From NCBI GenBank assembly GCA_004028765.1, contig SAIX01000056.1, positions 62,001 through 126,000 on the forward strand: a stretch of 64,000 nt of DNA. The letters run 5' to 3'. A model generated the notes under the pieces. The model saw only the letters and a list, made by a program, of their open reading frames with translations, searched no databases and was not told the DNA's origin. This document shows positions 6,201 to 22,040 of this stretch, in pieces. How positions within the stretch are numbered: position 1 is the first letter of the stretch; each line of letters starts with the position of its first letter. Origin of the DNA: Chitinophagaceae bacterium. GTDB taxonomy: Bacteria > Bacteroidota > Bacteroidia > Chitinophagales > Chitinophagaceae. Position numbers and translations under genes: made by a program.

Positions 6201-6219
6201 ATCCTCTTGTTTCTGGCTG

Positions 6220-6227
6220 CAAAAGTA
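6220..6227 (-). promoter_or_regulatory. -7 element TACTTTTG of prfA
   Basis: Read on the minus strand this is TACTTTTGC, a full match to the Bacteroidota TAnnTTTG element, about 20 bases before the prfA ATG. The predicted transcript start leaves a very short leader. Confidence 0.55.
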
Positions 6228-6320
6228 AAGGATTGAAGGGTTTCCCGCCTTATGAATCCAAAGCTGCCCAAAAACGGGTAATGATGTATCTTCCTGCCTG
6301 AATTCAACCGACTGACTGTT

Positions 6321-7892
6321 ATGAAGAAAATCCTTTTTGTTCTTTTGTTACAACCCATCGCTTTCCTTAATGCCCAGCAGGCCGATATCCTGATCAAAAA
6401 CGGGAAAATCCTTGACGGAACCGGGAACAGTTGGTTTTACGGAGACCTGGCCGTTCAGAATGGAAAAATCGTTGCGATTGGTAAACTGGCCAAATGGACC
6501 GCCACAAAAACAATTGATGCAACCGGTTTGATGGTAGCGCCGGGTTTTATTGATGTGCATACGCATATTGAAGGAGATGAGCGCAGGCAGCCAACGGCTG
6601 ATAATTTTATTTATGATGGGGTTACTACGGTCGTAACGGGAAATTGTGGTTTATCCCAAGTGAACCTCGGCGCGTATTTCCGGATGATCGACAGTTTACG
6701 CGTATCGATCAATGTGGCTTCGCTGATCGGTCATAATGATGTACGCAAAGCCGTGATGGGTTCTGCCAACCGCGACCCGAACGAAGAAGAAATGAAAAAA
6801 ATGGAAGCCATTGTTGCACAGGCGATGCGGGATGGAGCCGTGGGTATGTCTACCGGGCTGATCTATATCCCCGGCACGTATTCCAAAACAGAAGAAGTGG
6901 TTCGGCTCGCGAAAGTGGCATCCCAATACAATGGCGTTTATGCCAGTCACATGCGTGATGAAGCCGACAGTGTAACACAGGCCATTGAAGAAGCCTTACA
7001 TATCGGCCGCGAAGCGAAGATGCCGGTGGAAATATCGCATTTTAAATTAAGCGGGCAACAGAACTGGGGGCGCAGCAAAGAAACGATCCCGATGATCATG
7101 AAAGCAAGGCAGGAAGGTCTGGATGTAACCATTGATCAATATCCTTATACCGCCAGCAGTACATCGCTCAGTACACTTTTACCCGATTGGGTATTGGCAG
7201 ATGGACAGGATTCCATTAATGCAAGGCTTGCCAGGCCCGATGTGAGAAAAGAAGTAAAAGAGTTTATGCTGAAAAAACTGAAGAAAAGAAAACTCAAAAA
7301 TTTCAGCTATCCCGTTGTGGCTTCTTACCGGCCCGACAGTTCATTCAATGGAAAAAGCATTGAGGAAGTGAACCTTCAGCTCGGCCGCAAACACAAAGCA
7401 ATGGAAGAAGCCGAAACCATTATTGAGATGATGGAAAAAGGCGGTGCCGGTATGGTGTTTCATGGAATGGGTGATGAAGATGTAAAACGCATCATGCAGT
7501 ATCCCTTCAATATGTTCGCGAGTGATGCAAGTATCCGGGTTTGGGGTTCGGGCAACCCGCACCCGAGAGGATATGGTACCAATGCAAGGGTGCTGGGTAA
7601 ATATGTAAGAGAAGAAAAAGTGATCACACTGGAAGAAGCGATCAGAAGAATGACTTCCCTGCCTGCACAGAAATTTCAGCTGCATAACCGCGGACTATTG
7701 CGCGAAGGCTATGCTGCGGATATCGTGGTATTTGATGAACAGAAAGTGGCTGACCTTTCTACTTATAACAAACCGCACCAGTTCAGCACCGGGTTTCAGT
7801 ATGTATTGGTAAACGGTAAATTAACACTGGAGGAAGGAAAGCACAACGGCACCCGTGCTGGCGCTGTTTTAAAACTGAATCAAGCACCATGA
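6321..7892 (+). CDS. Secreted N-acyl-D-amino-acid deacylase (amidohydrolase)
   Basis: Hydrolyses N-acyl-D-amino acids (D-aminoacylase group of the amidohydrolase superfamily). A signal peptide ([19 protein letters not shown]) points to the periplasm or outside. The N-terminal beta-sandwich strand [15 protein letters not shown] is followed by the metal-binding HTH at 80-82 ([12 protein letters not shown]), Cys109 in VTGNCGLS, which corresponds to the zinc-ligating Cys of D-aminoacylases, and the SHMRDEAD and VEISHFK motifs carrying further ligands. 523 residues is normal for this group. It is first in a tightly packed run: the next gene overlaps it by 4 bases. Exact substrate cannot be read from sequence; a dihydroorotase/hydantoinase role is less likely. 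Confidence 0.88.
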
Positions 7893-8971
7893 AAAAAATC
7901 CTGTTATTCGCCTGTTTACTTGTTGCGGATACTTTATTCGCAAGTGATCGGTATGCTTCTCTTGATTCGTTCTTACAGGAGCAGGCCAACACCAAACGTT
8001 TCAGTGCCGTGGTGCTGGTTGCTGAAAAAGGGAAGATCCGTTATGAAAAAGCATTCGGCTACCGCAGCTTCGCCGATAAAACAGTTTTACAAAGCGATGA
8101 TGTTTTTGAACTGGCTTCTGTAAGCAAACAGTTCACCGCAATGGTGATCATGATGCTCAAAGAAAAAGGGTTGCTGCAATTCGATGACCCCGTTGAAAAA
8201 TATCTATCGATCCCATACAAAGGCATCACCATCCGCCATTTATTAACGCATACCAGCGGGCTCCCGGATTACCAGGCAGTGATGGATGCGCACTGGGATA
8301 AAACAAAAGTGGCAGGCAATGAAGATATCCTAGAATACCTGAACCGCTATGCGCCCCCAAAACTATTTGAGCCGGGAACAAAATACAGTTACAGCAACAC
8401 GGGGTATGTTTTACTGGCCAGTATTGCTGAAAAAGCCAGCGGCCGTGATTTCATTGAATTCTGCAACACAGAAATTTTTTACAAACTGCGGATGAAACAT
8501 ACTGCGATCCGTACACTCGCAGAAAAAGCAGCAGTTAAAAATTTTGCCGCAGGCCATATCTATGTGAAAGAAAAAGATGATTTCATCCGTGCCGATTCTT
8601 TTCCTTCTTCCAACTATACCATATGGCTTGGTAACCGCAAAGGGCCGGGGCGCATCAGTTCCACCGCAGAAGATCTTTTAAAATGGGATCGTGCATTGTA
8701 CACTGAGCAACTTGTGAAACAATCCACGCTTGCCGAAGCTTTCACTCCGATGAAACTGGCAGATGGCAGCCAGTCGAACTATGGTTTTGGCTGGGTAATC
8801 GCTGAAAATACGGAGGCCGGGAAAATGGTTTGGCACAACGGAGATAACCCCGGTTACAAAACACAGATCATGCGGTACCTTTCTCCGCAAAAAACGATTA
8901 TTGTTCTCTGCAACAATGCAGTAGATAATTTTGATACCATCCTGAAACAGATCCCATCAAAAATTTTATAA
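7889..8971 (+). CDS. Secreted serine hydrolase, beta-lactamase/PBP4* family
   Basis: A class-C-type beta-lactamase fold hydrolase with signal peptide ([18 protein letters not shown]). The nucleophile motif SVSK is at 77-80, the YSN triad motif at 168-170, and the third motif is HNG in MVWHNGDNPGY near residue 314. Members act as D,D-peptidases, D-aminopeptidases or esterases rather than as resistance beta-lactamases. The ATGA overlap with the upstream deacylase and the 1-base overlap with the downstream dipeptidase show a three-gene operon, so a role in cleaving D-amino-acid-containing peptides, for example from cell walls, is a reasonable inference. Confidence 0.88.
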   Translation: MKKILLFACLLVADTLFASDRYASLDSFLQEQANTKRFSAVVLVAEKGKIRYEKAFGYRSFADKTVLQSDDVFELASVSKQFTAMVIMMLKEKGLLQFDDPVEKYLSIPYKGITIRHLLTHTSGLPDYQAVMDAHWDKTKVAGNEDILEYLNRYAPPKLFEPGTKYSYSNTGYVLLASIAEKASGRDFIEFCNTEIFYKLRMKHTAIRTLAEKAAVKNFAAGHIYVKEKDDFIRADSFPSSNYTIWLGNRKGPGRISSTAEDLLKWDRALYTEQLVKQSTLAEAFTPMKLADGSQSNYGFGWVIAENTEAGKMVWHNGDNPGYKTQIMRYLSPQKTIIVLCNNAVDNFDTILKQIPSKIL

Positions 8972-10158
8972 TGAATTTATTACGCAAAACACTTCTGCCA
9001 ATCCTGTTCCTTTCACCTTTACTACAAATGGCACAGGATTACCGTGCGATCCATGAAAAAGCCATCGTGGCCGATTCGCACAACGATATCCTCACTGCCT
9101 GTATGGAAAAAAAAGTGCGTATGGACCAGTCATTAAAAGGCCGTACGCATTCTGACCTCGAACGTTTTAAACAGGGCGGTGTGGATGTACAGATATTTTC
9201 TGTGTGGTGCGATGGCAATAAGAAAAATCCGTTCGCCTGGGCCAACCAGGAAATGGATACACTCGATGCTGTGATTGCCCGCAACCCGGATAAGATCGCG
9301 CTGGTGCGGAACAGCCGCGAATTACAACGTGCCGTAAAAGAACATAAACTGGCCGCCATGTTTGGCGTGGAAGGTGGGCACATGATCGAAGACAAATTGG
9401 AAAACCTCGATAAATTATATGCCCGTGGTACCAGGTACCTGACGCTTACCTGGAACAATTCCACTTCCTGGGCCACATCGGCCATGCTGGAAACGACTAA
9501 GAAAGACAGTCTGGCCCATGCACAGAAAGGCCTTACGGAATTCGGGAAACAGGTCATCCGCCGGATGAATGAACTGGGGATGATGGTAGACCTTTCGCAT
9601 GTTGGTGAACAAACTTTCTGGGATGCCATCCATACCAGCACCAAGCCTATCATCGTATCTCACAGTAATGCCTATACCCTCTGCCCCATTTTCCGCAACC
9701 TGAAAGACGAACAGATACTGGCAGTTGGAAAAAATGGGGGGGTGATAGACCTTAATTTTTATGCGGGTTTTGTAGACAGTAGTTTTATGCGCAAGGAATC
9801 AAAGTTTGCAGCATCGCATGCCGGAGAACTGGATTCGCTGATCCGTGCAGGTGTGCAGAAGGATTATGCTTTAACGATGATCTCTGAAAAATATGCTGCG
9901 GAAGTAACCGCCAATAAACCCACATTGGATATGTTGCTGCAGCATCTTGAGTATATCGTAAAACTGATCGGGGTTGACCATGTTGGGCTTGGTTCTGATT
10001 TTGACGGTATCAGTGTGGCGCCGCAGCAATTAGACGATGTTACTTCCTACCCCATAATCACAAAAGCATTGCTTGAAAGAGGATACAGCAAAAAAGACAT
10101 CAGCAAGATCATGGGCGGCAATATCCTCCGGGTATTAAAAGCCAATGAAAGCCGGTAA
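8971..10158 (+). CDS. Secreted membrane-dipeptidase family (M19) dipeptidase
   Basis: Zinc dipeptidase of family M19 (renal dipeptidase), many of which accept dipeptides with a C-terminal D-residue. A signal peptide ends near LLQMAQ. Metal ligands are visible as H37 and D39 in ADSHNDIL, the bridging Glu in FGVEGGHMIED, and His in VDLSHVGEQTFWD and IIVSHSNA; the substrate Asp lies in VGLGSDFDG. 395 residues is normal. Its start codon overlaps the stop of the serine hydrolase (TAATG). With the acyl-D-amino-acid deacylase it forms a unit well suited to recycling D-amino-acid compounds. Confidence 0.92.
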   Translation: MNLLRKTLLPILFLSPLLQMAQDYRAIHEKAIVADSHNDILTACMEKKVRMDQSLKGRTHSDLERFKQGGVDVQIFSVWCDGNKKNPFAWANQEMDTLDAVIARNPDKIALVRNSRELQRAVKEHKLAAMFGVEGGHMIEDKLENLDKLYARGTRYLTLTWNNSTSWATSAMLETTKKDSLAHAQKGLTEFGKQVIRRMNELGMMVDLSHVGEQTFWDAIHTSTKPIIVSHSNAYTLCPIFRNLKDEQILAVGKNGGVIDLNFYAGFVDSSFMRKESKFAASHAGELDSLIRAGVQKDYALTMISEKYAAEVTANKPTLDMLLQHLEYIVKLIGVDHVGLGSDFDGISVAPQQLDDVTSYPIITKALLERGYSKKDISKIMGGNILRVLKANESR

Positions 10159-10174
10159 AACCTTTCCGGAATCG

Positions 10175-10232
10175 TTTGGATATTCCGTTTGCGTGACGTA
10201 AATTTTGAATCCGCAAACGGGACGTATCCAAA
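10175..10232. other. Two-tier perfect inverted repeat before the S9 peptidase gene
   Basis: Outer arms TTTGGATA (10175-10182) and TATCCAAA (10225-10232) and inner arms CCGTTTGCG (10185-10193) and CGCAAACGG (10212-10220) are all perfect, around an 18-base centre. There is no T run after it, so it is a weak terminator candidate. It ends 9 bases before the S9 peptidase ATG, so it could be an operator or a 5'-leader hairpin. Confidence 0.65.
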
Positions 10233-10241
10233 ACCAAACTC

Positions 10242-12347
10242 ATGAGAAAATTTTTTTTCCTGCTTGCCCTGCCTGTTCAGTTACTGGCGCAGGCTGGCAG
10301 CTTCGAATCTTTTAAATCCTATCCTTTCCCAACTGAACTTACTGCTTCTGCCAAAGGTTCGCGAATTGCCTGGGCCATGGACGAAAAAGGGGTACGAAAT
10401 ATTTACGCAGCAGAGGGCCCCTCGTTCCAGCCTGTAAAAATCACATCGTTTACAAAAAATGACGGTCAGGAATTAACCAGTGTAACCATTTCTGATGATG
10501 GAAACTGGGTGGTATTTGTAAGGGGCGGCGATCATGGTGCCAATTACGATGGCAGCTTACCCATCAATGCCGCCAATGAAACCAATCCCTTTAAAGTGCA
10601 GGTAGGCACCGTTCCATTCGCCGGCGGCCCAACAAAATTTCTCTCCGAAGGAGATGCACCCGTGATCTCTCCCGACAGTAAAACAGTGGCTTTTATCAAA
10701 GGCGGACAGGTATTCACCGCACAGATAGATGGCGCTTCTCCTGCAAAAAATATTTTTACAACAAGGGGTACCGCTGGTTCCCTTGAATGGAGCCCTGATG
10801 GGAAACGTCTTTTGTTCGTAGCCAACCGCGGCGATCATTCCATCATCGGTATCTATACAAATGCAGATATGCCTATTCAATGGGTGGCTGCATCTTTTTA
10901 CAGGGATAACAGCCCGCACTGGTCGCCCGATGGTAACAGGATCGTATTTATCCGTCGACCCGGAGCAGGCGGTGCACCCGATTCGGTTCTTGCAAAAAAA
11001 CACCAGCCCTGGTCAATCTATACTGCCGATATCAATACTGGAAAAGCGAGCCTTTTATGGAAAGCACCGGCCACCTTACGTGGATCGGTTCCGAATACAC
11101 ATGGTGGAACAAACCTGCACTGGGCAGCAGATAATAAAATTGTTTTTCTTTCTTACCAGGATGGATGGCCGCACCTCTATTCCATTGATGCCAATGGCGG
11201 AAAGGAATTACTGCTGACACCCGGAAGTTTTATGTGCGAACATATCAGTCTCAGCAGCGATAAACGAACACTTACATTCAGTGCGAATACCGGGCCCGAT
11301 GCAAAAGATATTGAAAGAAGACATGCAGCAAAAGTAAGTGCAGACAAAGCCGATATGCAGGTGCTTACACCCGGCAACGGTGTTGAATGGACACCTGTAA
11401 TTACAGGCGATGGAAAAACAATGGCGTTTATTGCCGGTGGTGCGCAAAAAAGTCCACTGCCAGCCGTCATGAATTTATCGGGTGATAAAACATTCAGAAA
11501 GATTGGTGAATCGCTGGTGCCTGCTATTTTCCCTGAACAGCAACTTGTGGTGCCTGCACAGGTAATTTTTAAGGCGGCTGATGGGGTAACCGTGCATGCA
11601 GATCTGTTTATGCCGAAAGATGGTGCCGCTAAAAAGCCGGCGATCGTATACGTGCATGGCGGGCCACCGAGGCAGATGTTACTTGGATGGCACTACTCCG
11701 ATTATTATTCCAATGCCTATGCTTCGAACCAATACCTTGCCAGTCTCGGCTTCGTGGTGTTATCTGTGAATTATCGTTTGGGCATCGGCTATGGATATGA
11801 ATTTCATCAGCCCAAAAATGGCGGCGCTGCCGGTGCTGCAGAATACCAGGATATTGTAGCCGCAGGAAAATGGCTGCAGCAGCAAAATTTTGTAGATGCA
11901 GCCAGGATCGGCATTTATGGCGGTTCGTATGGAGGTTATCTTACAGCAATGGCACTGGCGCATGATTCAAAAATATTTGCAGCAGGTGTAGACATACATG
12001 GTGTGCACGACTGGACGGCGCAGGCCAACCTCAGTGCGGGTGCAGATAAATTTGAGAAAGCTCCCGATCTCGATCTCGCACTGAAAACCGCATGGAATGC
12101 TTCCCCGGTATCCTCCATCAAAACCTGGCGGTCGCCGGTGCTGATTATTCATGCGGATGACGACAGGAATGTGCGGTTTAACCAAAGTGTGGATCTGATC
12201 AACCGCCTGGATAAACAGAAAGTGGATTATGAAACCATGATGATCGTGGATGATACACACCACTGGATGAACTGGCAGAATGCGGTGAAGGTATATGGGG
12301 CAGTGGCTGATTATTTTGTGAGGAAGCTTACAAAGACTGAACGCTGA
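10242..12347 (+). CDS. Secreted S9 family peptidase (DPP IV/acylaminoacyl-peptidase type)
   Basis: A serine peptidase that removes short N-terminal pieces from peptides. Order: signal peptide (MRKFFFLLALPVQLLAQ), a TolB/PD40-type beta-propeller over about residues 30-420 with repeated SPDG/SPDSK blades, then an alpha/beta-hydrolase domain. The catalytic Ser is about 562 in GGSYGGY, Asp near 641 in HADDDRNVRF, and His near 673 in DDTHHWMNW. YVHGGPPRQM forms the oxyanion region. It follows the D-amino-acid operon but is separated by 83 bases with a strong inverted repeat, so it may have its own control. 701 residues is normal for the family. Confidence 0.93.
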   Translation: MRKFFFLLALPVQLLAQAGSFESFKSYPFPTELTASAKGSRIAWAMDEKGVRNIYAAEGPSFQPVKITSFTKNDGQELTSVTISDDGNWVVFVRGGDHGANYDGSLPINAANETNPFKVQVGTVPFAGGPTKFLSEGDAPVISPDSKTVAFIKGGQVFTAQIDGASPAKNIFTTRGTAGSLEWSPDGKRLLFVANRGDHSIIGIYTNADMPIQWVAASFYRDNSPHWSPDGNRIVFIRRPGAGGAPDSVLAKKHQPWSIYTADINTGKASLLWKAPATLRGSVPNTHGGTNLHWAADNKIVFLSYQDGWPHLYSIDANGGKELLLTPGSFMCEHISLSSDKRTLTFSANTGPDAKDIERRHAAKVSADKADMQVLTPGNGVEWTPVITGDGKTMAFIAGGAQKSPLPAVMNLSGDKTFRKIGESLVPAIFPEQQLVVPAQVIFKAADGVTVHADLFMPKDGAAKKPAIVYVHGGPPRQMLLGWHYSDYYSNAYASNQYLASLGFVVLSVNYRLGIGYGYEFHQPKNGGAAGAAEYQDIVAAGKWLQQQNFVDAARIGIYGGSYGGYLTAMALAHDSKIFAAGVDIHGVHDWTAQANLSAGADKFEKAPDLDLALKTAWNASPVSSIKTWRSPVLIIHADDDRNVRFNQSVDLINRLDKQKVDYETMMIVDDTHHWMNWQNAVKVYGAVADYFVRKLTKTER

Positions 12348-12376
12348 ATGCAGAATGCAAAGCCCGAAATAAAAAA

Positions 12377-12411
12377 TCAACTCCTCACTTTTAACTCCTA
12401 ACTCCCGACTA
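12377..12411. repeat. Dispersed ACTTTTAACTCCTAACTCC-type repeat
   Basis: A T/C-rich module in front of the first MEVHHHPH gene. The same motif family occurs at 34546-34572, 43082-43163 and 56087-56122. Related AATTCTTAATTCC modules fill several spacers between the paralogues that follow. Confidence 0.5.
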
Positions 12412-12415
12412 TCAT

Positions 12416-13156
12416 ATGGAAGTGCACCACCACCCGCATGTAGAGAAAAAATCCTTTAAAGAATATGTGCTTGAAGGGCTGATGATATTTATTGCTGTTT
12501 CTATGGGATTTATTGCAGAGAATATCCGGGAGAAAATACAGGATCATGAAATTGTGCAACGGAATATTGAGATCATTATTGAAAACCTGAAAACGGATAC
12601 TGCAGCGATTTCCAGAGTAAACAAAGCCTCCGAAGAGCGTATCCTTGCGCTGGATTCAATCCTCACTTTCCAGAACAAACGATTTGGCGATCCTGTTTAT
12701 TTCCAAACATTTATCCGCCTTTTCAGAAAAAATACCTGGAACCCCACGTATATCGCAACCAATGAGGCTTACGAGCAAATGAAAAGTTCAGGTAACCTTC
12801 GGCTGATCCACAATAAAGAGGTTTTGGATAGCCTTTTTAACTATAACGCAAAGGGTTTGGTTATAAAATGGAATGGTGAGGTGGTATTTACGAATTCAAC
12901 GCAATGTGTTGAAGATATCAGTTGCTTTATTTCCATGCAGGATAACAACAAACCATCTCAAGCTGTTAATTACGTGGGGAACTCAAATGATATTCTGCGT
13001 TTTTTTAATCATTGCTTCGTATTAAAAGTAAGAATCAGCGGTGGCTATATAAGATATCTTGCTGATCAAAAGAAAAGAGCTGAAAACCTTATCAAATTAT
13101 TACAGGAAGAATACAATATTAAAGACAACCCTTCAACAGAAACGCATACAAATTAA
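12416..13156 (+). CDS. MEVHHHPH-family membrane protein 1 (class I)
   Basis: First of eight tandem paralogues. I do not recognise a named domain. The N-terminus is MEVHHHPHVEKKSFKEY followed by one short hydrophobic segment at about residues 18-34 and the invariant AENIRE; this block is nearly identical in all eight. The remaining 200 residues are predicted helical and soluble, with the class I landmark YEQMKSSGNLRLIHNKEV (the NKEVLDSL part corresponds to KEIADSL in member 7). Charge distribution suggests N-terminus inside and the large domain outside the cytoplasm, but this is inference. It is the most diverged class I copy: it lacks the terminal YHLEKE and ends in a polar tail. It begins 68 bases after the S9 peptidase. 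Confidence 0.85.
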   Translation: MEVHHHPHVEKKSFKEYVLEGLMIFIAVSMGFIAENIREKIQDHEIVQRNIEIIIENLKTDTAAISRVNKASEERILALDSILTFQNKRFGDPVYFQTFIRLFRKNTWNPTYIATNEAYEQMKSSGNLRLIHNKEVLDSLFNYNAKGLVIKWNGEVVFTNSTQCVEDISCFISMQDNNKPSQAVNYVGNSNDILRFFNHCFVLKVRISGGYIRYLADQKKRAENLIKLLQEEYNIKDNPSTETHTN

Positions 13157-13201
13157 CAGTATCATTTTTTCACTTTATACTTTTAACTTTTAATTCATTC
13201 C

Positions 13202-13984
13202 ATGGAAGTTCACCACCACCCGCATATTGAAAAAAAATCCTTTAAAGAATATTTACTCGAAGGGTTAATGATATTTTTTGCGGTATCGATGGGTTTTATA
13301 GCAGAAAATATCCGGGAAAATATTTCTGAAAACCACAAAGCACAGGAACTTGCAGAAAGTTTGTACAAAGAAGTCAAATCCGACTCGGTACAGATCCAGG
13401 ATAAGATCCGGTTCCGCAGCCGGAAAATTGACAATATGATCCAGTTCCGGAATACGCTGCGCGACAGCAGTCTTGAACACCTTGGCTCCGGTTTTGGAAT
13501 GGGCATGTACTGGACCACGCAGATCATAACACTCATTTTATTTGAACCGCAGGATGGGATTCTTTCACAACTGAAAAATTCGGATAACCTGAAATTTTAT
13601 AAGACAAATGAATTACAAAGCGCCATAGGGAATTATTCTGTGATCATCAACCGGACAAGGACCCGGAACCAGCAGGAGTATAATGTGGTAGACAATTTTA
13701 TACGGAAGATGAGCATGCAGTATTTTGATTTCAGGTGGCTCGAAAAAGTATCTGCCAACGGAGGGTTACTCGTAACAACATCCGGGAACGTTGGTTCCTG
13801 CCCCGAATACCCGTTTGAAATACAGAACAGGAATACATTCAACAGGCAGGAACTAACAGGTATCGTATCGCAATATATATTGGTAGTAAAAGGAACCAGT
13901 GAACTCACCTACCAGGAATTCATCAACAGAAACCACGAATTGTTACAGGCCCTCAGAAACAATTATCATTTCGAAAAAGAATAA
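13202..13984 (+). CDS. MEVHHHPH-family membrane protein 2 (class II)
   Basis: 260 residues with the shared N-terminal block, then a class II domain: ENHKAQELAESLYKEVKSD, the landmark EPQDGILSQLKNSDNLKFY, RTRNQQEYN, and YFDFRWLEKV. It ends in LRNNYHFEKE, the same kind of C-terminal cap as class I (YHLEKE). It aligns without gaps to member 4, about 70% identical by direct count, the closest pair in the cluster. The QLKNSDNLKFY motif lines up with QMKNSGNFRVI of class I, so both classes descend from one ancestor. A 45-base spacer separates it from member 1. Confidence 0.87.
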   Translation: MEVHHHPHIEKKSFKEYLLEGLMIFFAVSMGFIAENIRENISENHKAQELAESLYKEVKSDSVQIQDKIRFRSRKIDNMIQFRNTLRDSSLEHLGSGFGMGMYWTTQIITLILFEPQDGILSQLKNSDNLKFYKTNELQSAIGNYSVIINRTRTRNQQEYNVVDNFIRKMSMQYFDFRWLEKVSANGGLLVTTSGNVGSCPEYPFEIQNRNTFNRQELTGIVSQYILVVKGTSELTYQEFINRNHELLQALRNNYHFEKE

Positions 13985-13997
13985 ACCCAGACAACGC

Positions 13998-14027
13998 AAT
14001 TCTTCATTCTTCATTCCTAATTCGTAC
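13998..14027. repeat. Spacer repeat ATTCTTCATTCCTAATTCG
   Basis: T-rich module in the spacer between members 2 and 3. Near-copies lie at 15619-15650, 16419-16455 and 18832-18864, that is, in the spacers after members 4, 5 and 8. The short gap after member 6 (7 bases) has none. Confidence 0.6.
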
Positions 14028-14033
14028 TTACGC

Positions 14034-14771
14034 ATGGAAGTTCACCACCACCCGCATATTGAAAAAAAATCTTTCAAAGAATATATACTGGAAGGGCTGA
14101 TGATATTCATTGCCGTTTCGATGGGTTTTATTGCGGAGAACATACGCGAAAAAATAAGCGACAGGGAGAGGCTACACGATTATATGTTATCGCTCACCGG
14201 TGACTTGAAGAGCGACCTTGCCCTGTACGATTCAACGATCGCTTCCAATACAAAGTATTCACTAATGATTGATACGATTGTTGAATCACTCAGCAGTGGA
14301 AAAGGGGATATGGTCAAAGTATACTATTTAGCAAGAAAATTAACCATGGGCGGCAGTTCACCATCGCCTGATTCCAAAACATTTGAGCAGATGAAGAGCA
14401 CCGGCAGCTTACGGCTGATCCATAAGCAAATGATTGCTGACAGTATTGCAGCTTATTATTTATGGACAAAGAAATTTGAATATTGGTCTGATATGCAGAA
14501 AGAAAGGATCAATGAAATGATCATGGCAAATCCCAGGATATTCAATGCAAAGGTTTTCTATGACATTATAAAAAATAACAACAATGAAAGCCTTTCTCCA
14601 GATCTTAGATTGACGAGTTCGGATCCGAAAGACATCAATGAAGTGATTATGAGAAATCAATATTATTATGGCATTTTGAAATTGATTAATCAACGGGCAT
14701 TACTGGCTGCTGCTCAGGCAAGACAGTTGATAGATTTATTACAAAAAGAATATCATTTAGATAAAGAATAG
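14034..14771 (+). CDS. MEVHHHPH-family membrane protein 3 (class I)
   Basis: 245 residues from the ATG at 14034. The frame is open upstream to 13899, but that extension overlaps the previous gene and the spacer repeat, and the conserved MEVHHHPHIEKKSFKEY block fixes the start. Class I landmarks: YMLSLTGDLKSD after the anchor, LARKL, the motif FEQMKSTGSLRLIHKQM, AYY, NAKVFYDII, and terminal LLQKEYHLDKE. It lies 49 bases after member 2 and 49 before member 4. Function unknown; single-pass membrane anchor with a helical outer domain is the visible architecture. Confidence 0.87.
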   Translation: MEVHHHPHIEKKSFKEYILEGLMIFIAVSMGFIAENIREKISDRERLHDYMLSLTGDLKSDLALYDSTIASNTKYSLMIDTIVESLSSGKGDMVKVYYLARKLTMGGSSPSPDSKTFEQMKSTGSLRLIHKQMIADSIAAYYLWTKKFEYWSDMQKERINEMIMANPRIFNAKVFYDIIKNNNNESLSPDLRLTSSDPKDINEVIMRNQYYYGILKLINQRALLAAAQARQLIDLLQKEYHLDKE

Positions 14772-14820
14772 ACTTACCCATTATCCTCAAATTCCGAACC
14801 TTACACTCCAAACTGTTCTC

Positions 14821-15603
14821 ATGGAAGTACATCACCACCCGCACCCCGAAAAAAAATCCTTCAAAGAATACCTTCTGGAAGGATTGATGATTTTTCTCGC
14901 CGTAACAATGGGATTTATTGCGGAAAATATCCGCGAAAGCATTTCTGAAAACCATAAATCGCAGGAGCTCGCTGAAAGCCTTTACAAAGAAGTAAAGGCC
15001 GACTCGGTTCTGATACAGCAGAAAATTCAACTGCGGAACAGGAAAGTGTTACAAATGACCTACCTGCGCAACTGTTTACGCGATAGCAGTCTCGAACACC
15101 TGGATTCCCGTTTCGGAATGGCGATGTATTGGACCAATTTCGTGGTAAGCCTTATCCTGTTTGAACCGCAGGATGGCATATTATCCCAGTTAAAAAATTC
15201 AACCAACTTTAAATTTTATAAAACCAGCGAGCTTCAGAATGCAACCGGCAAATACTCTGTTTCTGTGAGCCGTATCAGGATCCGTAACCAGCAGGAATAT
15301 AATATTGTTGATAATTTTATCCGCAACGTCAATATCCGTCATTTTGATTTCAGGTGGCTTGAAAAAGTTTCGGATGATGGTGCGCTCAACGGTTCTCAAA
15401 TGATAGAACTGGATCCCTGCCCTGCGTTTCCGTTTGAACTGCGAAATAAAAGTACACTGAATAAAGACGATTTAGCAGCCATCGTATCACAATACTTATA
15501 TGTGGTGAGAGGAACCAGTCAATTACATTATAAGGAATTCATCAACAGCAACCATGAATTATTACAGGCGCTCAGAAACAATTATCACTTTGAAAAAGAA
15601 TAA
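14821..15603 (+). CDS. MEVHHHPH-family membrane protein 4 (class II)
   Basis: 260 residues, gapless and about 70% identical to member 2, including LYKEVKADSV, LRDSSLEHL, EPQDGILSQLKNSTNFKFY, RIRNQQEYN, HFDFRWLEKV and terminal LLQALRNNYHFEKE. Position 9 is Pro (HHHPHPEKK) where the others have Val or Ile. The region just before the C-terminal third (about residues 188-210) is where the pair differs most, with one conserved Cys-Pro. The close resemblance of members 2 and 4, with a class I gene between them, points to duplication of a two-gene block. Confidence 0.87.
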   Translation: MEVHHHPHPEKKSFKEYLLEGLMIFLAVTMGFIAENIRESISENHKSQELAESLYKEVKADSVLIQQKIQLRNRKVLQMTYLRNCLRDSSLEHLDSRFGMAMYWTNFVVSLILFEPQDGILSQLKNSTNFKFYKTSELQNATGKYSVSVSRIRIRNQQEYNIVDNFIRNVNIRHFDFRWLEKVSDDGALNGSQMIELDPCPAFPFELRNKSTLNKDDLAAIVSQYLYVVRGTSQLHYKEFINSNHELLQALRNNYHFEKE

Positions 15604-15618
15604 ACGCATGGAGTACAC

Positions 15619-15650
15619 AATTCTTCATTCTTAATTCCTAATTCTTAATT
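15619..15650. repeat. Spacer repeat CTTAATTCCTAATTCTTAAT
   Basis: AT-rich module between members 4 and 5, close to those at 13998, 16419 and 18832. It could be a leftover of the segmental duplications that built the cluster or one of the general dispersed repeats of this genome. Confidence 0.6.
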
Positions 15651-15654
15651 ACGT

Positions 15655-16407
15655 ATGGAAGTACACCACCACCCACATGTAGAAAAAAAGTCCTTCAAAG
15701 AATACTTACTCGAAGGGCTCATGATCTTTCTGGCCGTTTCAATGGGATTTATCGCGGAAAATGTAAGAGAGCGTATATCTGACAGCGCAAAAGAAAATGA
15801 ATATATGGCTTCCCTGAAGGAAGATCTGAAAAATGATATCATTTCCATCAAAGCCACTATGGAGTTTAAACAGACAGGTTTAAAAAGGTCCGACACTCTT
15901 ATGTCTATTTTACGTGCAGGTAACACCAATACACAAACTGCTGAACTTTACTATCTGGCCAGATCGCTAAGCATCAGAAACTACTTCTACACAAATGATG
16001 GCACCATACAACAGCTGAAAAATGCCGGTGGCTTCCGGATGATCAGAAAAAGAAATGTGATAGACAGTTTACAGAAGTATATCAGCAGTATTGGTAGTCT
16101 TTATTCTTTGCAGGATATGGAAGAAGCGGTAATTACCGATTACCGGAAACCGTTGGGTAAAATTTTTGATGCCCAGGTATTTAACAGTATGTATGATAGT
16201 ACGAGGCCAGGGTTGGTGATTAAAAAGCCTGGCTACAATCCCACCTTGTTATCAGCTGATAAATTTGACCTCAATGAGTTTGCTATGAAAGTTGTTTATA
16301 TCAAAGGGGTACGCCTGGCTGAAATGGGCAATTACGAATCGATTGCGAAAAGAGCCGCCAGGATTATTGCGCTGATTGAGAAAGAGTACCATCTCGAAAA
16401 AGAATAA
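15655..16407 (+). CDS. MEVHHHPH-family membrane protein 5 (class I)
   Basis: 250 residues: conserved N-terminal block (with NVRE in place of NIRE), YMASLKEDLKND, RSDTLMSIL, LYYLARSL, the class I motif IQQLKNAGGFRMIRKRNV, FDAQVFNSMYDS, and terminal LIEKEYHLEKE. Here the motif reads QLK rather than QMK, intermediate between the classes. Spacers of 51 and 55 bases flank it. No catalytic motif is recognisable; the conserved residues are mostly in the anchor, the QxKN(A/S)G motif and the last ten residues. Confidence 0.87.
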   Translation: MEVHHHPHVEKKSFKEYLLEGLMIFLAVSMGFIAENVRERISDSAKENEYMASLKEDLKNDIISIKATMEFKQTGLKRSDTLMSILRAGNTNTQTAELYYLARSLSIRNYFYTNDGTIQQLKNAGGFRMIRKRNVIDSLQKYISSIGSLYSLQDMEEAVITDYRKPLGKIFDAQVFNSMYDSTRPGLVIKKPGYNPTLLSADKFDLNEFAMKVVYIKGVRLAEMGNYESIAKRAARIIALIEKEYHLEKE

Positions 16408-16418
16408 ACACAAAACCA

Positions 16419-16455
16419 AATTCTTAATTCTTAATTCCTAATTCTTAATTCTTAA
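16419..16455. repeat. Spacer repeat TTCTTAATTCCTAATTCTTA
   Basis: Spacer module between members 5 and 6, made of tandem TTCTTAATTC units; see also 13998, 15619 and 18832. Confidence 0.6.
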
Positions 16456-16462
16456 CTATTCC

Positions 16463-17266
16463 ATGGAAGTTCACCACCACCCGCATGTAGAAAAAAAGTC
16501 TTTCAAAGAATATCTCCTGGAAGGTTTGATGATTTTTCTGGCTGTTAGCATGGGTTTTATCGCAGAAAATATAAGGGAGCGCATCACTGAAAAAGCCATT
16601 GCACACGAGATGGCAGAAAATTTTTACCAGGAACTGGTTTCTGATTCGAGCAAACTCTCGAAAATCCAGTCGTTCCGGAAGAAAAAAGAATATGCCTGCC
16701 GGTATGTGATGCGGTATATCCGTGACAGCAGCCTGACCAACCCAACAGATTCCTTTTACCGGTATTTTACACTTGCCCTTTTGCAGGTTGGGTCTAATTC
16801 TACTTTTGATCCCACAGATGGTATCCTCACACAGTTGCAGAATTCAGGGACCAGGAGGTTTTTTAAAAACCCGGAACTGCAGAAACAGGTCAGTGAACTC
16901 GGGGTCACGATTAATTTCGTCAGGATACGGAATGAGCGCGAACTTGCTTTTCTTCCCCAAGTGATCCGGCCGCTTCTGCAAAAACACTATGACTTTGATT
17001 GGCTTGAGGAATTTATGCAGCATGGGAAAAGAACCATTTCCTCCGCCATTCTTGATTCTTCATTTGTTATGACATATAAACCAAAACTGCTGAAACAAAA
17101 CCAACTGGACCGCGAAGAATTGTACAATGCCGCTGCAGGTTACCTGCTTATGATCCGCGGGAGCAGTCTTACGGTATACAATGAGTATGCAGATGCCTGT
17201 TATAAGTTATTGGCGCAGCTAAGACAAGAATACCAATTAGAATCAAAATCAGAAAACAAAGAATAA
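16463..17266 (+). CDS. MEVHHHPH-family membrane protein 6 (class II)
   Basis: 267 residues, the longest member. After the shared anchor comes a diverged class II domain: MAENFYQELVSDS, YIRDSSL, DPTDGILTQLQNSGTRRFF, VRIRNEREL, HYDFDWLEEF, YLLMIRGSSLTVYNEY and terminal LRQEYQLESKSENKE. The EYQLESK end is a variant of the cap seen as NYHFEKE in members 2 and 4. It is separated from member 7 by only 7 bases, unlike the 45-55 bases seen elsewhere, so members 6 and 7 are the most tightly coupled pair. Confidence 0.86.
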   Translation: MEVHHHPHVEKKSFKEYLLEGLMIFLAVSMGFIAENIRERITEKAIAHEMAENFYQELVSDSSKLSKIQSFRKKKEYACRYVMRYIRDSSLTNPTDSFYRYFTLALLQVGSNSTFDPTDGILTQLQNSGTRRFFKNPELQKQVSELGVTINFVRIRNERELAFLPQVIRPLLQKHYDFDWLEEFMQHGKRTISSAILDSSFVMTYKPKLLKQNQLDREELYNAAAGYLLMIRGSSLTVYNEYADACYKLLAQLRQEYQLESKSENKE

Positions 17267-17273
17267 TTTTCTT

Positions 17274-18026
17274 ATGGAAGTGCATCACCATCCTCACGTT
17301 GAGAAAAAAAATCTGAAGGAATATATCCTGGAAGGCCTGATGATCTTTATTGCCGTTAGTCTTGGATTTGCCGCAGAAAGCCTCCGCGAACACCTGGTAA
17401 ATAAAGAGCGGGAACAAATCTATATGGAATCATTTTATTCAGATTTGCAAAATGACCAGAAAGACCTTCCCAGGCTCATCGGCAATATTACAGATCAACA
17501 ACTCGAAACGGCCAGTTCCTTAGAAAGGCTGTTACCGAATGTTCAAACCAATACGGTAGCTGATTCCATTTATTATTGTCTCAGGAAAATAATACGCCAG
17601 CAGGGTATTCGTGGATATATTACAGATCGTACCATCGAGCAGATCAAAAACGCAGGAGAAATGCGCCTGATCTCCAAAAAAGAAATCGCCGACAGCCTTA
17701 TCGACTATTACAAAGGCATTGTATATACAGAGTACCTGCAACAAACACTGTTAGGCTATAAGGCCAAACTTTTAGATAACCTGCCCCTGATCCTGAAAGG
17801 CGCCGATTACAGTACCGTTATTAATGACCTGAATATGGTAATCATCCCCGACCACCATCTTTATCTTTTCAACACTGACCCGGTTCACATGAACAGAATT
17901 TTACTGCAGGCGGTGGAAATCAGTGCGCTCAGCAAAACAGTCAGAAGAAATATCCTTCAGCTCCTTGAAAAAAATCAAAAAATTACCAGGCTTATCGCAG
18001 AAAAATATCACCTCGAAAAAGATTAG
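17274..18026 (+). CDS. MEVHHHPH-family membrane protein 7 (class I)
   Basis: 250 residues and the most diverged anchor block: EKKNLKEY, SLGFAAESLRE. The HHHPH tail, Glu20 in LEGLM and the hydrophobic stretch are kept. Class I landmarks follow: YMESFYSDLQND, YYCLRKI, TIEQIKNAGEMRLISKKEI, DYYKG and terminal IAEKYHLEKD. Starts 7 bases after member 6. No enzyme motif recognised. Confidence 0.86.
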   Translation: MEVHHHPHVEKKNLKEYILEGLMIFIAVSLGFAAESLREHLVNKEREQIYMESFYSDLQNDQKDLPRLIGNITDQQLETASSLERLLPNVQTNTVADSIYYCLRKIIRQQGIRGYITDRTIEQIKNAGEMRLISKKEIADSLIDYYKGIVYTEYLQQTLLGYKAKLLDNLPLILKGADYSTVINDLNMVIIPDHHLYLFNTDPVHMNRILLQAVEISALSKTVRRNILQLLEKNQKITRLIAEKYHLEKD

Positions 18027-18075
18027 CCATTGAAGTATTGCAAACAATCATCCAAAAACATCAATACAGAAATTT

Positions 18076-18816
18076 ATGGAAGTTCACCATCATCCACATA
18101 TTGAAAAAAAACCATTCCGGGAATATTTACTTGAAGGACTGATGATTTTCATCGCTGTTTGCATGGGTTTTATTGCTGAAAATATCCGGGAAAACATCTC
18201 CGATCATGAAAAAGCGGAAGTATATATGAAATCGCTGCTGGCAGATATTAAAGATGATCGCAGTTTTATTGACAAACATCACCAAACCTATGCGATAAGG
18301 CTGCCTTTATTAGACAGCCTTATTGATCAACTCACTGAAACCCCGGCTCCAGGCAATACCAGTAACCTGTATTATTATGGCAGGCTGGCCAGCAAATCAG
18401 ATAAATTCCCGGTAAATACCAGAACGATCGATCAGATGAAGAATTCAGGGAATTTCAGGGTGATTAAAAACGAAAAAGTTGCTGCGGAAATTGTTGCTTA
18501 TTATTTATTGACTGAACAGATCAACGAATATGAAAAAATAGAAGACCAGGAAGAAAATGAATACAGAAAAAATGCAGTCCAGGTTTTTAATGCAGCAGTT
18601 TTCAATAAAATCAATTCAACGATGGAAGTAAAAAGGCCTGCTGGAAACCCCGCTTTGCGAACCACCGACAGAAAAATAGCAGGCGACCTGGCCGGTTGGG
18701 TACACTATATTAAAAATACAAGAATCAGTATTGATTATTACAAATCGGAGCTGAGAAAAAAGGGGGATATAGTAACTGCGTTAATTGAAAAAGAATACCA
18801 CCTCAAAAAAGAATAA
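18076..18816 (+). CDS. MEVHHHPH-family membrane protein 8 (class I)
   Basis: 246 residues: EKKPFREY and VCMGFIAENIRE in the anchor block, YMKSLLADIKDD, LLDSLIDQL, YYYGRLASK, the class I motif TIDQMKNSGNFRVIKNEKV, VFNAAVFNKI and terminal ALIEKEYHLKKE. It breaks the class alternation, since a class II gene would be expected here; either one was lost or this copy arose by a single-gene duplication. The penicillin acylase gene starts 106 bases later on the same strand. Confidence 0.87.
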   Translation: MEVHHHPHIEKKPFREYLLEGLMIFIAVCMGFIAENIRENISDHEKAEVYMKSLLADIKDDRSFIDKHHQTYAIRLPLLDSLIDQLTETPAPGNTSNLYYYGRLASKSDKFPVNTRTIDQMKNSGNFRVIKNEKVAAEIVAYYLLTEQINEYEKIEDQEENEYRKNAVQVFNAAVFNKINSTMEVKRPAGNPALRTTDRKIAGDLAGWVHYIKNTRISIDYYKSELRKKGDIVTALIEKEYHLKKE

Positions 18817-18831
18817 TAACGGGTCATATCC

Positions 18832-18864
18832 AATTCTTAATTCTTAGTTCTTAATTTTTAATTA
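18832..18864. repeat. Spacer repeat AATTCTTAATTCTTAGTTCT
   Basis: The last copy of the cluster spacer module, between member 8 and the acylase gene. Confidence 0.55.
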
Positions 18865-18922
18865 CCCCCCCTGTTTACCGATAAAATTTCCGATACTGGT
18901 TTTGCTGTAATAATTTAAGCGC

Positions 18923-21109
18923 ATGAAAAAAATATCTTTCCTCATTTTCCTGCTGCCCCTGCAGCTGATTGCACAGCCATTCAGTAAATCAGATATCCAG
19001 AAATGGGAACAACAGGCAAAACGTGTTACCATTATCCGCGATAACTGGGGCATCCCGCATGTATATGGCAAAACCGATGCAGATGCTGTTTTCGGCATGT
19101 TATATGCCCAATGCGAAGATGATTTTAAACGGGTAGAGATGAATTATGTAGAAAAACTCGGCCGGCTTTCTGAAGTAAATGGGGAAAGGGATATTTATAA
19201 CGACCTGCAGATAAGGATGCTGATCGATACAGCAGAAGCCAAAAAAGACTACGAAAATGCCAGCATCTGGATGCATGCTTTACTGCATGCATTTGCAGAT
19301 GGCATCAATTATTATCTCTACAAACATCCTGAAGTAAAACCTGCGCTGTTAAACCGTTTTGAGCCATGGTTCCCTTTGTTGTGGACAGACGGAAGCATCG
19401 GCGCAATTGATGTGGCAGATATTACACTGAATGACCTGCGCAATCTATATCCCGTAAACAAAGAGCTTGCCGTGGTAACAGAAAAAATAACACTGTACGA
19501 CCAGTTCCCCGATGGCTCCAATGGTTTTGCCATCTCTCCCTTCAAAACAGCTTCAGGTAATGCAATGCTCTACATCAACCCGCATGTAACCTATTATTTC
19601 CGGCCAGAGATACAGGTACATAGTGAGGAAGGTTTGAATGCATACGGTGCGGTAACCTGGGGGCAGTTTTTTGTGTACCAGGGATTCAATGAACACCTTG
19701 GTTGGATGCATACCAGCAGTTATAGCGATGTGGCCGATACCTATATAGAAAAAGTGTTGATGAAAGACGGGCAACTGGTATATGAATACGATGGGAAAAT
19801 AAAACCCGTAACACAGAAAGAGATCGACATATATTATACCTACAACGGTACAAAACTTAAAAAACATTTTACCACGTATTACACACACCATGGCCCGCTG
19901 ATGGCCAAAAGGGATGGTAACTGGATCTCCGTTCGTGCGAACAACCGGGATGCAAAAGGGTTGATACAATCTTTTACAAGAACCAAATCACGCAATTTTA
20001 CCGAGTTCCGGAAATCGATGGAACTCCTTGCCAATACTTCGAACAATACAGTATATGCCGATGACAAAGGAAATATCGCTTACTGGCATGGGAATTTTAT
20101 GCCGAAGCGGGATCCCAAATTCAACTGGCGCAAACCGGTGGATGGCAGTACAAGCGCAACAGAATGGAAAGGGCTGCATACACTCGAAGAACTGATCCAG
20201 GTAAAAAACCCGGCAACAGGATGGATACAGAATTGTAATTCCACCCCCTTTACAGTTTCCGGAAGCAGCAGTCCGAAAAAAGAAAATTTTCCCGCATACA
20301 TGGCACCCATGGGTGAGAACTTCCGCGGGGTGAATGCCGTAAGATTATTGAGTGAAAGCAATGGATATACGATCGATAAACTGACCCGTACCGGTTATGA
20401 TACACATCTTCCGGCTTTCGATCTTTTGATACCCGCACTCAATAAAGTTTGGGAAGAAAACAAAAGCAATGAAAAATATACCTCATTAACAGAGCCCATG
20501 AAAATATTGGCTGCCTGGGACCATAACTGCGGTGAAAATTCTATTGCCACAACTCTTGCTGTGGAATGGGGCGAAAAAATATGGCGCAATATCCAGCGTA
20601 CCAATGGGGAAGATGATAACAGCGACCAGGTGGTGAAAACACAGAAGTTTGTTCAGAACCCGCCTGCTGATATTTTATTACAGGCATTGCTGAATACAGT
20701 GAATGATCTCACCAAACGTTTTGGTACCTGGCAAAAACCCTGGGGGGAGATTAACCGTTACCAGCGACTCACCGGTAATCTTACCGAGAAGTATGACGAC
20801 AATGCGCCGAGTATCCCCTCGGGTTATACTGCTTCTACCTGGGGTTGCCTTGCTTCTTTTGTGAGCAGACCCATGAATGGAAGCAATAAGCGCTATGGCA
20901 ACAGCGGCAACAGTTTTATTGCGGCAGTTGAATTCGGCAAGAAAGTAAAAGCAAAATCATTGCTTGCGGGCGGCGAAAGCAGCAACCCCGCTTCCCCGCA
21001 TTTTGGCGACCAGGCAGAAATGTACACAAAAGGAAAATTCAAAGAAGTTTTGTTTTATAAAGAAGATGTGTTGAAACATGCAGAAAAAACTTATCACCCG
21101 GGGGAGTAG
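18923..21109 (+). CDS. Secreted penicillin acylase family amidohydrolase
   Basis: Ntn-hydrolase made as a precursor and split autocatalytically into alpha and beta chains; family members cleave acyl groups from beta-lactams, acyl-homoserine lactones or acyl-amino acids. The signal peptide (MKKISFLIFLLPLQLIAQ) is followed by the alpha-chain start RDNWGIPHVYGKTDADA. The predicted N-terminal nucleophile of the beta chain is Ser199 in PDGSNGFAISP, with INPHV shortly after. 728 residues is typical. It comes directly after the octet on the same strand. Substrate is not readable; given the deacylase operon upstream, acyl-amino acids or acyl-homoserine lactones are candidates. Confidence 0.92.
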   Translation: MKKISFLIFLLPLQLIAQPFSKSDIQKWEQQAKRVTIIRDNWGIPHVYGKTDADAVFGMLYAQCEDDFKRVEMNYVEKLGRLSEVNGERDIYNDLQIRMLIDTAEAKKDYENASIWMHALLHAFADGINYYLYKHPEVKPALLNRFEPWFPLLWTDGSIGAIDVADITLNDLRNLYPVNKELAVVTEKITLYDQFPDGSNGFAISPFKTASGNAMLYINPHVTYYFRPEIQVHSEEGLNAYGAVTWGQFFVYQGFNEHLGWMHTSSYSDVADTYIEKVLMKDGQLVYEYDGKIKPVTQKEIDIYYTYNGTKLKKHFTTYYTHHGPLMAKRDGNWISVRANNRDAKGLIQSFTRTKSRNFTEFRKSMELLANTSNNTVYADDKGNIAYWHGNFMPKRDPKFNWRKPVDGSTSATEWKGLHTLEELIQVKNPATGWIQNCNSTPFTVSGSSSPKKENFPAYMAPMGENFRGVNAVRLLSESNGYTIDKLTRTGYDTHLPAFDLLIPALNKVWEENKSNEKYTSLTEPMKILAAWDHNCGENSIATTLAVEWGEKIWRNIQRTNGEDDNSDQVVKTQKFVQNPPADILLQALLNTVNDLTKRFGTWQKPWGEINRYQRLTGNLTEKYDDNAPSIPSGYTASTWGCLASFVSRPMNGSNKRYGNSGNSFIAAVEFGKKVKAKSLLAGGESSNPASPHFGDQAEMYTKGKFKEVLFYKEDVLKHAEKTYHPGE

Positions 21110-21162
21110 CAGTGTTACAGGTTGGCGGATTACAAATTCGTGGATTATGTATTGATTGATTG

Positions 21163-21217
21163 ATTCCCGTAAAGCCGCAAAGTATTCTCGACTCAATGCG
21201 GTTTTCTTTGCGGGAAT
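21163..21217. other. Imperfect inverted repeat after the acylase gene
   Basis: ATTCCCGTAAAGCCGCA (21163-21179) pairs with TGCGG and CTTTGCGGGAAT (21197-21217) with one mismatch and a small bulge. It sits 54 bases after the acylase stop and could act in termination or mRNA stability. The wording resembles the genome's dispersed 'CCGCAAAG' repeats. Confidence 0.5.
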
Positions 21218-21305
21218 AAATCGTTTGATTACACATCGTTACTCCTTGCCTGACGTGCAATCAACATATAAAACGCATCAGTACATAACAGTTAAATGAA
21301 AACAG

Positions 21306-21818
21306 ATGAATACAAATCTTTGTTTCCGTTGGGTGAAAGTGCTCTGCGTAAAAGCCATCGCTATTATGGCTTTACTGATCACGTTCAACAACTGCACCGA
21401 TTATTTTTCCAATTATCTGTTCGTGCAGCATGTACTGCAGATGGATACGATTTTCCCGGGCAGTTCCCTTCATTACCGTTCCATACAACAGCCCTGGTTA
21501 TGGCATACGGGTTATATACTGATCATTGTACTCGAAGGCATCATGGGTATTACCTGTATGATGGGCGCCTGGCAAATGTGGGTAAGCCGTAACCAGTCAG
21601 CGGCAATATTTCATGCAGCCAAAAAATGGGCGATCGCAGGTATCGGTATCGGCATTTTTATCTGGTTCCTGTTTTTTGAAGTACTGGGCGGAGAATGGTT
21701 TGTAATGTGGCAAAGCAGCACCTGGAATGGGCTTTCGGCTGCAGAACGCATTACAGGTTTCCTGATGCTGAGTTTGATTTTATTGTATTTGAAGGAAGAA
21801 GATTTGCCTGCGATGTAA
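21306..21818 (+). CDS. DUF2165 family small integral membrane protein
   Basis: 170 residues with four hydrophobic segments at about 10-30, 67-90, 107-126 and 148-163. The pattern TFNNCTDYFSN near the end of the first segment, the long second loop and the GGEWFVMWQS segment match the DUF2165 family of predicted membrane proteins. No function is established. It stands alone between two noisy intergenic stretches. The ATG at 21306 is preferred; another frame opens a few bases upstream but has no family resemblance. Confidence 0.8.
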   Translation: MNTNLCFRWVKVLCVKAIAIMALLITFNNCTDYFSNYLFVQHVLQMDTIFPGSSLHYRSIQQPWLWHTGYILIIVLEGIMGITCMMGAWQMWVSRNQSAAIFHAAKKWAIAGIGIGIFIWFLFFEVLGGEWFVMWQSSTWNGLSAAERITGFLMLSLILLYLKEEDLPAM

Positions 21819-22040
21819 ATTTTATTTCAGGTAGTATTCCTTTTCCGTTTCCATCGGATCTCTCGATAGAGGGTTCAGCAGTTTTGTATTCGTTCATTGC
21901 AATGTATACAGTACTCTTTTTTGTTTTGCTCTCCGATTCCGCAAGGTTTCCGCTTTAGGCGGAAGGCCCGGCGAGGATATTCCGTACAAAGAAATTACTG
22001 CTTTTGCTACAGTTGTAACTTAGTGTTATAAAAGCATAAT

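Follow-up and report, generated by a model that had tools for sequence, protein, structure and literature searches.

Eight complete genes stand in a row on the + strand, at positions 12416-18816, of a 64,000-nt stretch from the genome of a Chitinophagaceae bacterium (contig SAIX01000056.1, positions 62,001 to 126,000; the whole stretch is hereafter called the window). Judged from the sequences, the encoded proteins belong to a branch of a known, uncharacterised superfamily, DUF6090, and single genes of this branch appear to have been swapped between species in related bacteria. The branch and the single-gene exchange pattern in the relatives are what is new here, and the pattern seems to be without an earlier description in the literature searched. 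The eight genes had been noted before in a preliminary description made from the DNA alone, which took them for a two-gene unit duplicated again and again. They are real genes, but the row is not made of copies of a two-gene unit.

Origin of the arrays and probable exchange of single genes

The origin of the eight genes was examined through their bodies, that is, without the conserved anchor that opens each of them (codons 1-39; 15655..15771, + strand, in member 5), which encodes a His-rich tail, a membrane helix and the motif AENxRE. Six of the eight bodies are closer to a protein of another genome than to any array mate in a comparison that omitted 11 fragment copies of the window array. The best matches are found at 74% identity for member 3 (L074_2357; L numbers denote loci), 63% for member 5 (L074_3143), 58% for member 8 (L136_9801) and 57% for member 7 (L091_4105), and the top match of member 1 beyond the array is L064_8001 at 38%. 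The exception is the pair of members 2 and 4, starting at 13202 and 14821, which are nearest to each other (67%, against 61-62% elsewhere); only this pair resembles a local duplicate. When 289 bodies were grouped at no less than 42% identity, 109 groups were obtained, and pairs of the same group within one locus made up 10 of 555 (1.8%), with 1.4% expected from random draws. Eleven of 300 proteins had no recognisable anchor and were omitted from the anchor and body tests, and L012 (four members) came out empty in the grouping, its members being indexed under overlapping copies. Since group sharing within loci is about that of a random draw, the arrays resemble samples of a common pool and not local expansions. 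Tandem duplication was dropped as the main origin of the window array, with body matches, grouping and the tree all against it.

The body tree, built from 110 proteins, also bears on the two classes that were proposed for the window. Class I of the window as a single clade was rejected (p-AU 1.5e-72). The class II proteins fall within a nine-row clade spanning genera (SH-aLRT 100), and the three of the window were not rejected as one clade (p 0.184); by this tree class II is a true clade, one of many lineages. A strict motif search assigned 13 of 233 named-locus proteins to it, in 13 loci, and the best body match, which covered 213 of the 233, assigned 15, one per locus except for three in a row in L071. 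The earlier model, in which the two classes pair as heteromers and were amplified as a two-gene unit, draws on the clade and on the absence of class II from all 35 one-gene loci. Against it, the members are old separate lineages by body matches, grouping and tree, and class II occurs in 11 of the 27 other arrays of at least three genes, is missing from 16 of them and alternates in none. Three class II genes among eight places are never adjacent with a chance P of 0.36, and therefore the alternation alone carries little weight. Single unpaired homologues, named beforehand as the finding that would speak against the model, are present as well, in 20 of 75 named loci, none of them class II. Obligatory pairing thus does not stand, and the model as a whole is largely refuted and very improbable.

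Exchange between genomes was followed through DNA blocks that touch family genes in two different genomes; 19 were found with a minimum of 600 bp and of 84% identity. Exactly one whole family gene, bordered by the conserved anchors, lies in 17 of the 19 blocks, and in none of the 19 rows are both neighbours known to share groups. Along the six pairs that were profiled, identity is 33-70% in the leader, rises to 73-100% in the anchor and stays mostly at 80-100% through the body; in the five pairs reaching the next gene, its anchor is again at 80-100%, followed by a drop to mostly 43-66% in its body. Core genes of the same genomes served as controls; out of 13 genomes, rpoB was located in 8 and groEL in 12. 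Block identity exceeds that of the core genes by 10-17 points in five comparisons: L073/L110 (93.1% against 77.2 for groEL), L107/L110 (92.8 against 76.1 for groEL), L107/L073 (91.8 against 78.8 for rpoB and 81.3 for groEL), L067/L089 (90.9 against 77.3 for groEL) and L073/L079 (93.4 against 83.0 for rpoB and 77.8 for groEL). The block of L110/L079 is raised moderately only (96.1 against 88.5 for groEL), and that of L069/L100 is without a core-gene control. Most of the genomes with blocks are metagenome bins, and L073 comes from a named strain; misbinning of contigs would not readily explain one gene standing among different neighbours.

The anchors were compared separately from the bodies. 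In six of 14 pairs, four of them from orthogroup OG7, the anchors resemble each other no more than unrelated anchors from the two loci do, with bodies at 88-97% identity. At two-fold codons, anchors of the same locus differ less than those of different loci (0.251 against 0.338), and the bodies hardly show such a difference (0.388 against 0.397). In 30 close pairs the synonymous divergence pS is 0.586 in the anchor and about 0.40 in the body. On the protein level, tested with the 141 of 220 members that have both a same-locus mate and an orthologue of at least 45% body identity, anchors of one locus are on average no more alike than those of orthologues (0.816 against 0.832).

Several observations weigh against an exchange of single genes bounded by the anchors. 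Two blocks, L070/L127 (91.2 against 89.1 for groEL) and L065/L064 (87.7 against 85.4), fit vertical descent; six of the 17 one-gene blocks represent the one orthogroup OG7; and the 3.1-kb block of L100/L105 also spans a neighbouring kinase. The anchor is closer than unrelated anchors of the same loci in eight of the 14 pairs, and therefore not every block shows a replaced anchor. Because all anchors align with one another, block ends that fall inside them do not locate the crossover. In orthologues the paired test of silent sites is weak, the anchors being the more different part in 26 of 39 pairs (p 0.044). The window itself contributes to no block of the 19, and in L074 the relatives of its members 3, 5 and 6 stand in the same order. 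Of the two-fold codons in the window anchors, 0.290 differ, against a background of 0.338, so constraint alone nearly explains them. Strong gene conversion of anchors within the window array was dropped on this comparison; no recent swap is seen in the array and any homogenisation of its anchors is weak.

Possible signs of turnover were observed in some arrays, where shortened members or a degenerate anchor occur (L079:2797-3168, L073 at about 9551 and L111:2180-2425). Other arrays are interrupted at a single position, by amino-acid-permease-like genes in L086, L110 and L111 and by TPR-type genes in L070 and L122. A small gene that interrupts the L070 array is presumably cupin-like.

The eight-gene array and its protein family

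The eight open reading frames (ORFs) are separated by gaps of 7-55 nt and are all on the + strand. Members 1 (12416..13156, 246 aa), 3 (14034..14771, 245 aa), 5 (15655..16407, 250 aa), 7 (17274..18026, 250 aa) and 8 (18076..18816, 246 aa) constitute class I, and members 2 (13202..13984, 260 aa), 4 (14821..15603, 260 aa) and 6 (16463..17266, 267 aa, diverged) constitute class II. A GTG ORF starting at 13899 is an upstream extension of member 3. The order I-II-I-II-I-II-I-I of the preliminary description is right, and the class II motifs DGIL(S/T)QL and DF(R/D)WLE were confirmed in members 2, 4 and 6. All eight genes open with the same anchor stretch, in which 28 of the 39 residues are invariant across all members, and the bodies diverge to an overall identity of 24-36% to member 1. 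The nearly fixed N-terminus and the divergent centre are thus borne out. The shared C-terminal cap is narrower than claimed: the YH(L/F)-type cap is found in six of the eight, member 1 ending in YNIKDNPSTETHTN and member 6 in EYQLESKSENKE. Likewise, the QMK given for class I is present in three of its five members, with QLK in member 5 and QIK in member 7, and member 5 also has DG ahead of its motif.

Scans of the eight proteins against Pfam, NCBIfam, PHROGs and PADLOC gave sub-threshold matches only, and the three matches of a PDB sequence search, all with E of 0.08 or worse, were disregarded. The statement that no characterised family is matched therefore holds. No Rfam match was found in window positions 10000-22000. 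In positions 6000-22000, neither sigma-70 promoters (29 against 34.6 in shuffles) nor terminators (12 against 16.7) are in excess, and internal promoters are therefore not claimed.

The proteins had been called undescribed, which is right for their function and not for their family, for by profile comparison they are distant relatives of DUF6090 (PF19578), outside that family by the Pfam test. None of the eight matches the Pfam model at E of 1 or below, and of the 110 rows designated A2 two match it at E of 0.01 or below, the best at 0.001. In hhalign, 287 family rows, from which bridging sequences were excluded, aligned with 101 DUF6090 rows at a probability of 99.0% (E 2.1e-18) over the full length and of 98.7% (E 2.4e-16) with tail and membrane helix removed; it is this homology, present also with the body only, that makes them distant relatives. 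A paralogue on contig C69 of the same genome passes the Pfam cut-off (25.7 against 23.5 bits) and also matches the window's family at 7e-11. Searched against 296 genomes of the phylum, the family profile found matches in 31, including a member of a DUF6090 array in G100 at 8.2e-18. DUF6090 proteins themselves occur in 10 of 99 phylum genomes (E of 1e-6 or below; 171 ORFs, duplicates included), and those on contig C2 of G100 (L169-L172) form a tandem array of 40 matched ORFs over about 77-130 kb, with unrelated genes interspersed. The architecture of a tail, one membrane helix and an all-helical domain of about 200 aa is common to both sides, that of DUF6090 being read from length and alignment only. 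On these comparisons the family forms a large branch within the DUF6090 superfamily, not covered by a Pfam model and present in Chitinophagaceae and Mucilaginibacter. The literature searched contained no paper naming DUF6090 or printing the MEVHHHP motif.

A total of 15 family copies are found in the genome of the window, eight in the array, four on contig C107 and three as singles. A search of relatives found copies in 26 of 60 genomes, with 24 of 37 in the same genus (the own genome included) and 2 of 23 in others. In named genomes, 255 stretches encode relatives, and 75 loci were kept, including those of Chitinophagaceae, Mucilaginibacter, Ginsengibacter, Parafilimonas and Ferruginibacter. 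Forty of them possess at least two members, 20 are lone genes flanked by 2.5 kb or more on both sides, and 15 are undecidable. The largest, L110, has up to 14 pieces, some incomplete. Consecutive members are on the same strand in 156 of 158 pairs.

Predicted fold, surroundings and possible function

AlphaFold models were obtained with pLDDT 95.8 for member 5 (110 sequences) and 90.8 for member 2 (50 sequences). Both show one helix over residues 14-88, which includes the membrane part, followed by further helices, and the modelled chain stops after the fourth. Judged from structural matches, the helices are predicted to pack as a four-helix bundle. Foldseek found nothing in the PDB at E of 0.001 or below, and VIA-align returned only helical bundles and long helices, the closest being designed bundles (Z up to 13.5) and the natural ones focal-adhesion, vinculin and chemoreceptor ligand domains (Z about 7-12). 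Such a bundle is a common arrangement, and from the predicted fold neither kinship nor function is claimed. The bundle is placed in the periplasm, putatively, because the tail is basic.

Conservation decreases from the membrane outwards. It amounts to 3.64 bits in the cytoplasmic tail, 3.40 in the membrane helix, 1.3-2.2 in the base and 0.5-0.9 in the head, and over 148 positions it drops as the estimated height above the membrane increases (rho -0.43; helices 1, 3 and 4 each give a negative value), the heights having been set from the order of the helices without coordinates. In 30 close pairs dN/dS is 0.041 for the anchor, 0.106 for the base and 0.154 for the head. The constraint on the membrane anchor stated in the preliminary description is thereby corroborated, and its outer domain does evolve faster, though still under purifying selection and with no sign of positive selection. 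Positive selection on the heads was dropped on the head value.

In the reading that we tentatively prefer, the array would supply interchangeable receptors or adaptors that work with one shared partner, its repertoire being built by single-gene exchange. Its proteins, from the DUF6090 superfamily, would form a panel without redundancy and cross the inner membrane once, each with a short His-rich cytoplasmic tail and one membrane helix that is continuous with helix 1 of a four-helix bundle in the periplasm. The base near the membrane, with D61, the QLKNSG..R.I loop and the end of the last helix, is conserved, and the distal head is variable; the constant tail, membrane helix and base would most likely couple to the common partner, and each head may bind a different extracellular ligand, which would make the array an interchangeable receptor or adaptor set. 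The repertoire would grow by single-gene exchange more than by local duplication. In this process the coding anchor of about 117 nt that opens every gene could double as a homology pad, so that recombination between anchors would bring in a new body that is at once tethered to the membrane and competent for the partner. If so, homologous recombination inside a coding anchor would be a simple route for trading domains without a recombinase, and exchangeable heads on a constant anchor would turn an anonymous family into a testable recognition repertoire. The fuller version is possible, with less confidence: a recombinase-free cassette system whose anchor is both the coupling domain for a common intracellular or inner-membrane partner and the homology pad by which heads are traded between genera, giving a personal, non-redundant periplasmic recognition panel. 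Three results tell against the receptor set: no shared partner gene was found, the immediate neighbours of the arrays being varied; dN/dS shows no sign of positive selection; and the best fold matches, with designed bundles, are at about chance level for bundles.

The strongest rival, which we consider doubtful, is an immunity panel. Each member would act at the inner membrane to neutralise a single toxin or bacteriocin, and the arrays would grow as orphan immunity genes are acquired horizontally, in the manner of polyimmunity or rAID loci. The proteins are small and stand alone, the arrays are non-redundant and different genomes share single-gene blocks, all of which would fit it. There is also precedent in immunity arrays with homologous recombination (PMC5361080) and in orphan immunity arrays of Bacteroidales (PMC12247911). 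The main objection is the cytoplasmic tail, which is the most conserved part and would be needless for simple neutralisation. Low dN/dS speaks against it as well; furthermore, no immunity domain from Pfam or NCBIfam scores above chance in the eight members, and no toxin gene was recognised beside the arrays among the 25 commonest of 115 families in 112 flank genes (110 of 132 in the Pfam neighbour scan, and the two of the window). Whether read as a receptor or as an immunity panel, the function proposed here is putative.

The surroundings of the array suggest another possibility. A same-strand run lies upstream (6321..12347, +), with Amidohydro_3 (6321), a Beta-lactamase-fold hydrolase (7889), Peptidase_M19 (8971) and Peptidase_S9 (10242), and a penicillin amidase family gene is directly downstream (18923..21109, +). 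The members might then be accessory binding proteins of an operon for the periplasmic degradation of peptides or N-acyl-peptides, holding or regulating these enzymes. The position of the array inside the enzyme run is in favour, as is the frequency of M19: it accounts for seven of the 112 flank genes though only two M19 genes are present in the window's genome, and 15 of 98 loci with neighbours, the window among them, have an M19-like cluster no more than four genes away. Yet the position shifts, between S9 and amidase in the window and between M19 and S9 in L074; in some of the 15 loci the neighbourhood may be shared by descent; and the biggest arrays (L077, L079, L107 and L110) are without these enzymes in the available flank, which is almost nil for L107 and L110. 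We regard this explanation as unlikely.

Kinases also occur near the arrays, and the bundles could be input modules of neighbouring TPR-histidine kinases, sensing ligands and signalling through the membrane kinase. HATPase_c is found in nine of the 112 flank genes, although some adjacency is to be expected with 46 HATPase matches in the genome of the window, and a kinase is the immediate neighbour in few arrays. In Ginsengibacter hankyongi (L073:9706-10938) the last anchor of the array (29 residues) runs in frame into the C-terminal portion of a kinase that resembles the histidine kinase adjoining the L079 array. This fusion is one among 334 anchor-bearing ORFs in the loci covered, duplicates included, and may be a deletion product. 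The resemblance of the bundle to chemoreceptor ligand domains (Z about 7-10) would suit such a sensor as well, but these values are within the chance range for bundles, and the proposal appears quite improbable.

A further feature of the arrays is found in their leaders. A heptad repeat (TTCYTAA)n precedes member 5 (15621..15650, +), and like stretches at 14007-14022, 16421-16457 and 18834-18863 lie directly ahead of start codons. In the window and the named loci, period-7 identity above 0.55 was found in 30 of 159 family leaders and in 2 of 493 other genes, and the heptamer varies by genome. Another period-7 repeat occurs in the window at 28953-28961, far from the array.

Comparison with known systems

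TAACTGA heptamer repeats before start codons are described from Beggiatoaceae, Cyanobacteria and some Bacteroidetes (PMC4679880). They share with the leaders found here the period-7 direct repeats immediately ahead of start codons. The heptamer here, in contrast, varies from genome to genome and is enriched before one gene family.

Orphan immunity arrays, such as polyimmunity and rAID loci and those of the Vibrio type VI secretion system (T6SS), have small stand-alone genes, non-redundant arrays and horizontal exchange in common with the arrays of this family (PMC5361080, PMC12247911). They differ in that the arrays described here are made of one homologous family with a constant anchor and no immunity domain, with no toxin or recombinase recognised among the same 25 commonest neighbour families. 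The four-helix ligand domains of chemoreceptors (Tar, Tsr, PcaY and MCP2201) resemble the predicted bundle, at Z values in the chance range, and are likewise continuous with a membrane helix. However, the window family lacks the second membrane helix and the cytoplasmic signalling domain, and none of the eight members matches the 4HB_MCP ligand domain in Pfam.

The closest likeness in sequence is to DUF6090. Both sides have about 250 aa, a charged tail, one N-terminal membrane helix that opens with Glu in the DUF6090 sequences inspected, a core of the type SSG.L..I.N..L...I..YY and tandem arrays. The tail reads MEVHHHPxxEKK in the window family and M(I/L)KFFR.IR.K in DUF6090, and the end of the membrane helix reads GF.AEN.RE in the former and ALQINNWNE in the latter. 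Arrays of DUF6090-like proteins in Bacteroidota reach 40 genes.

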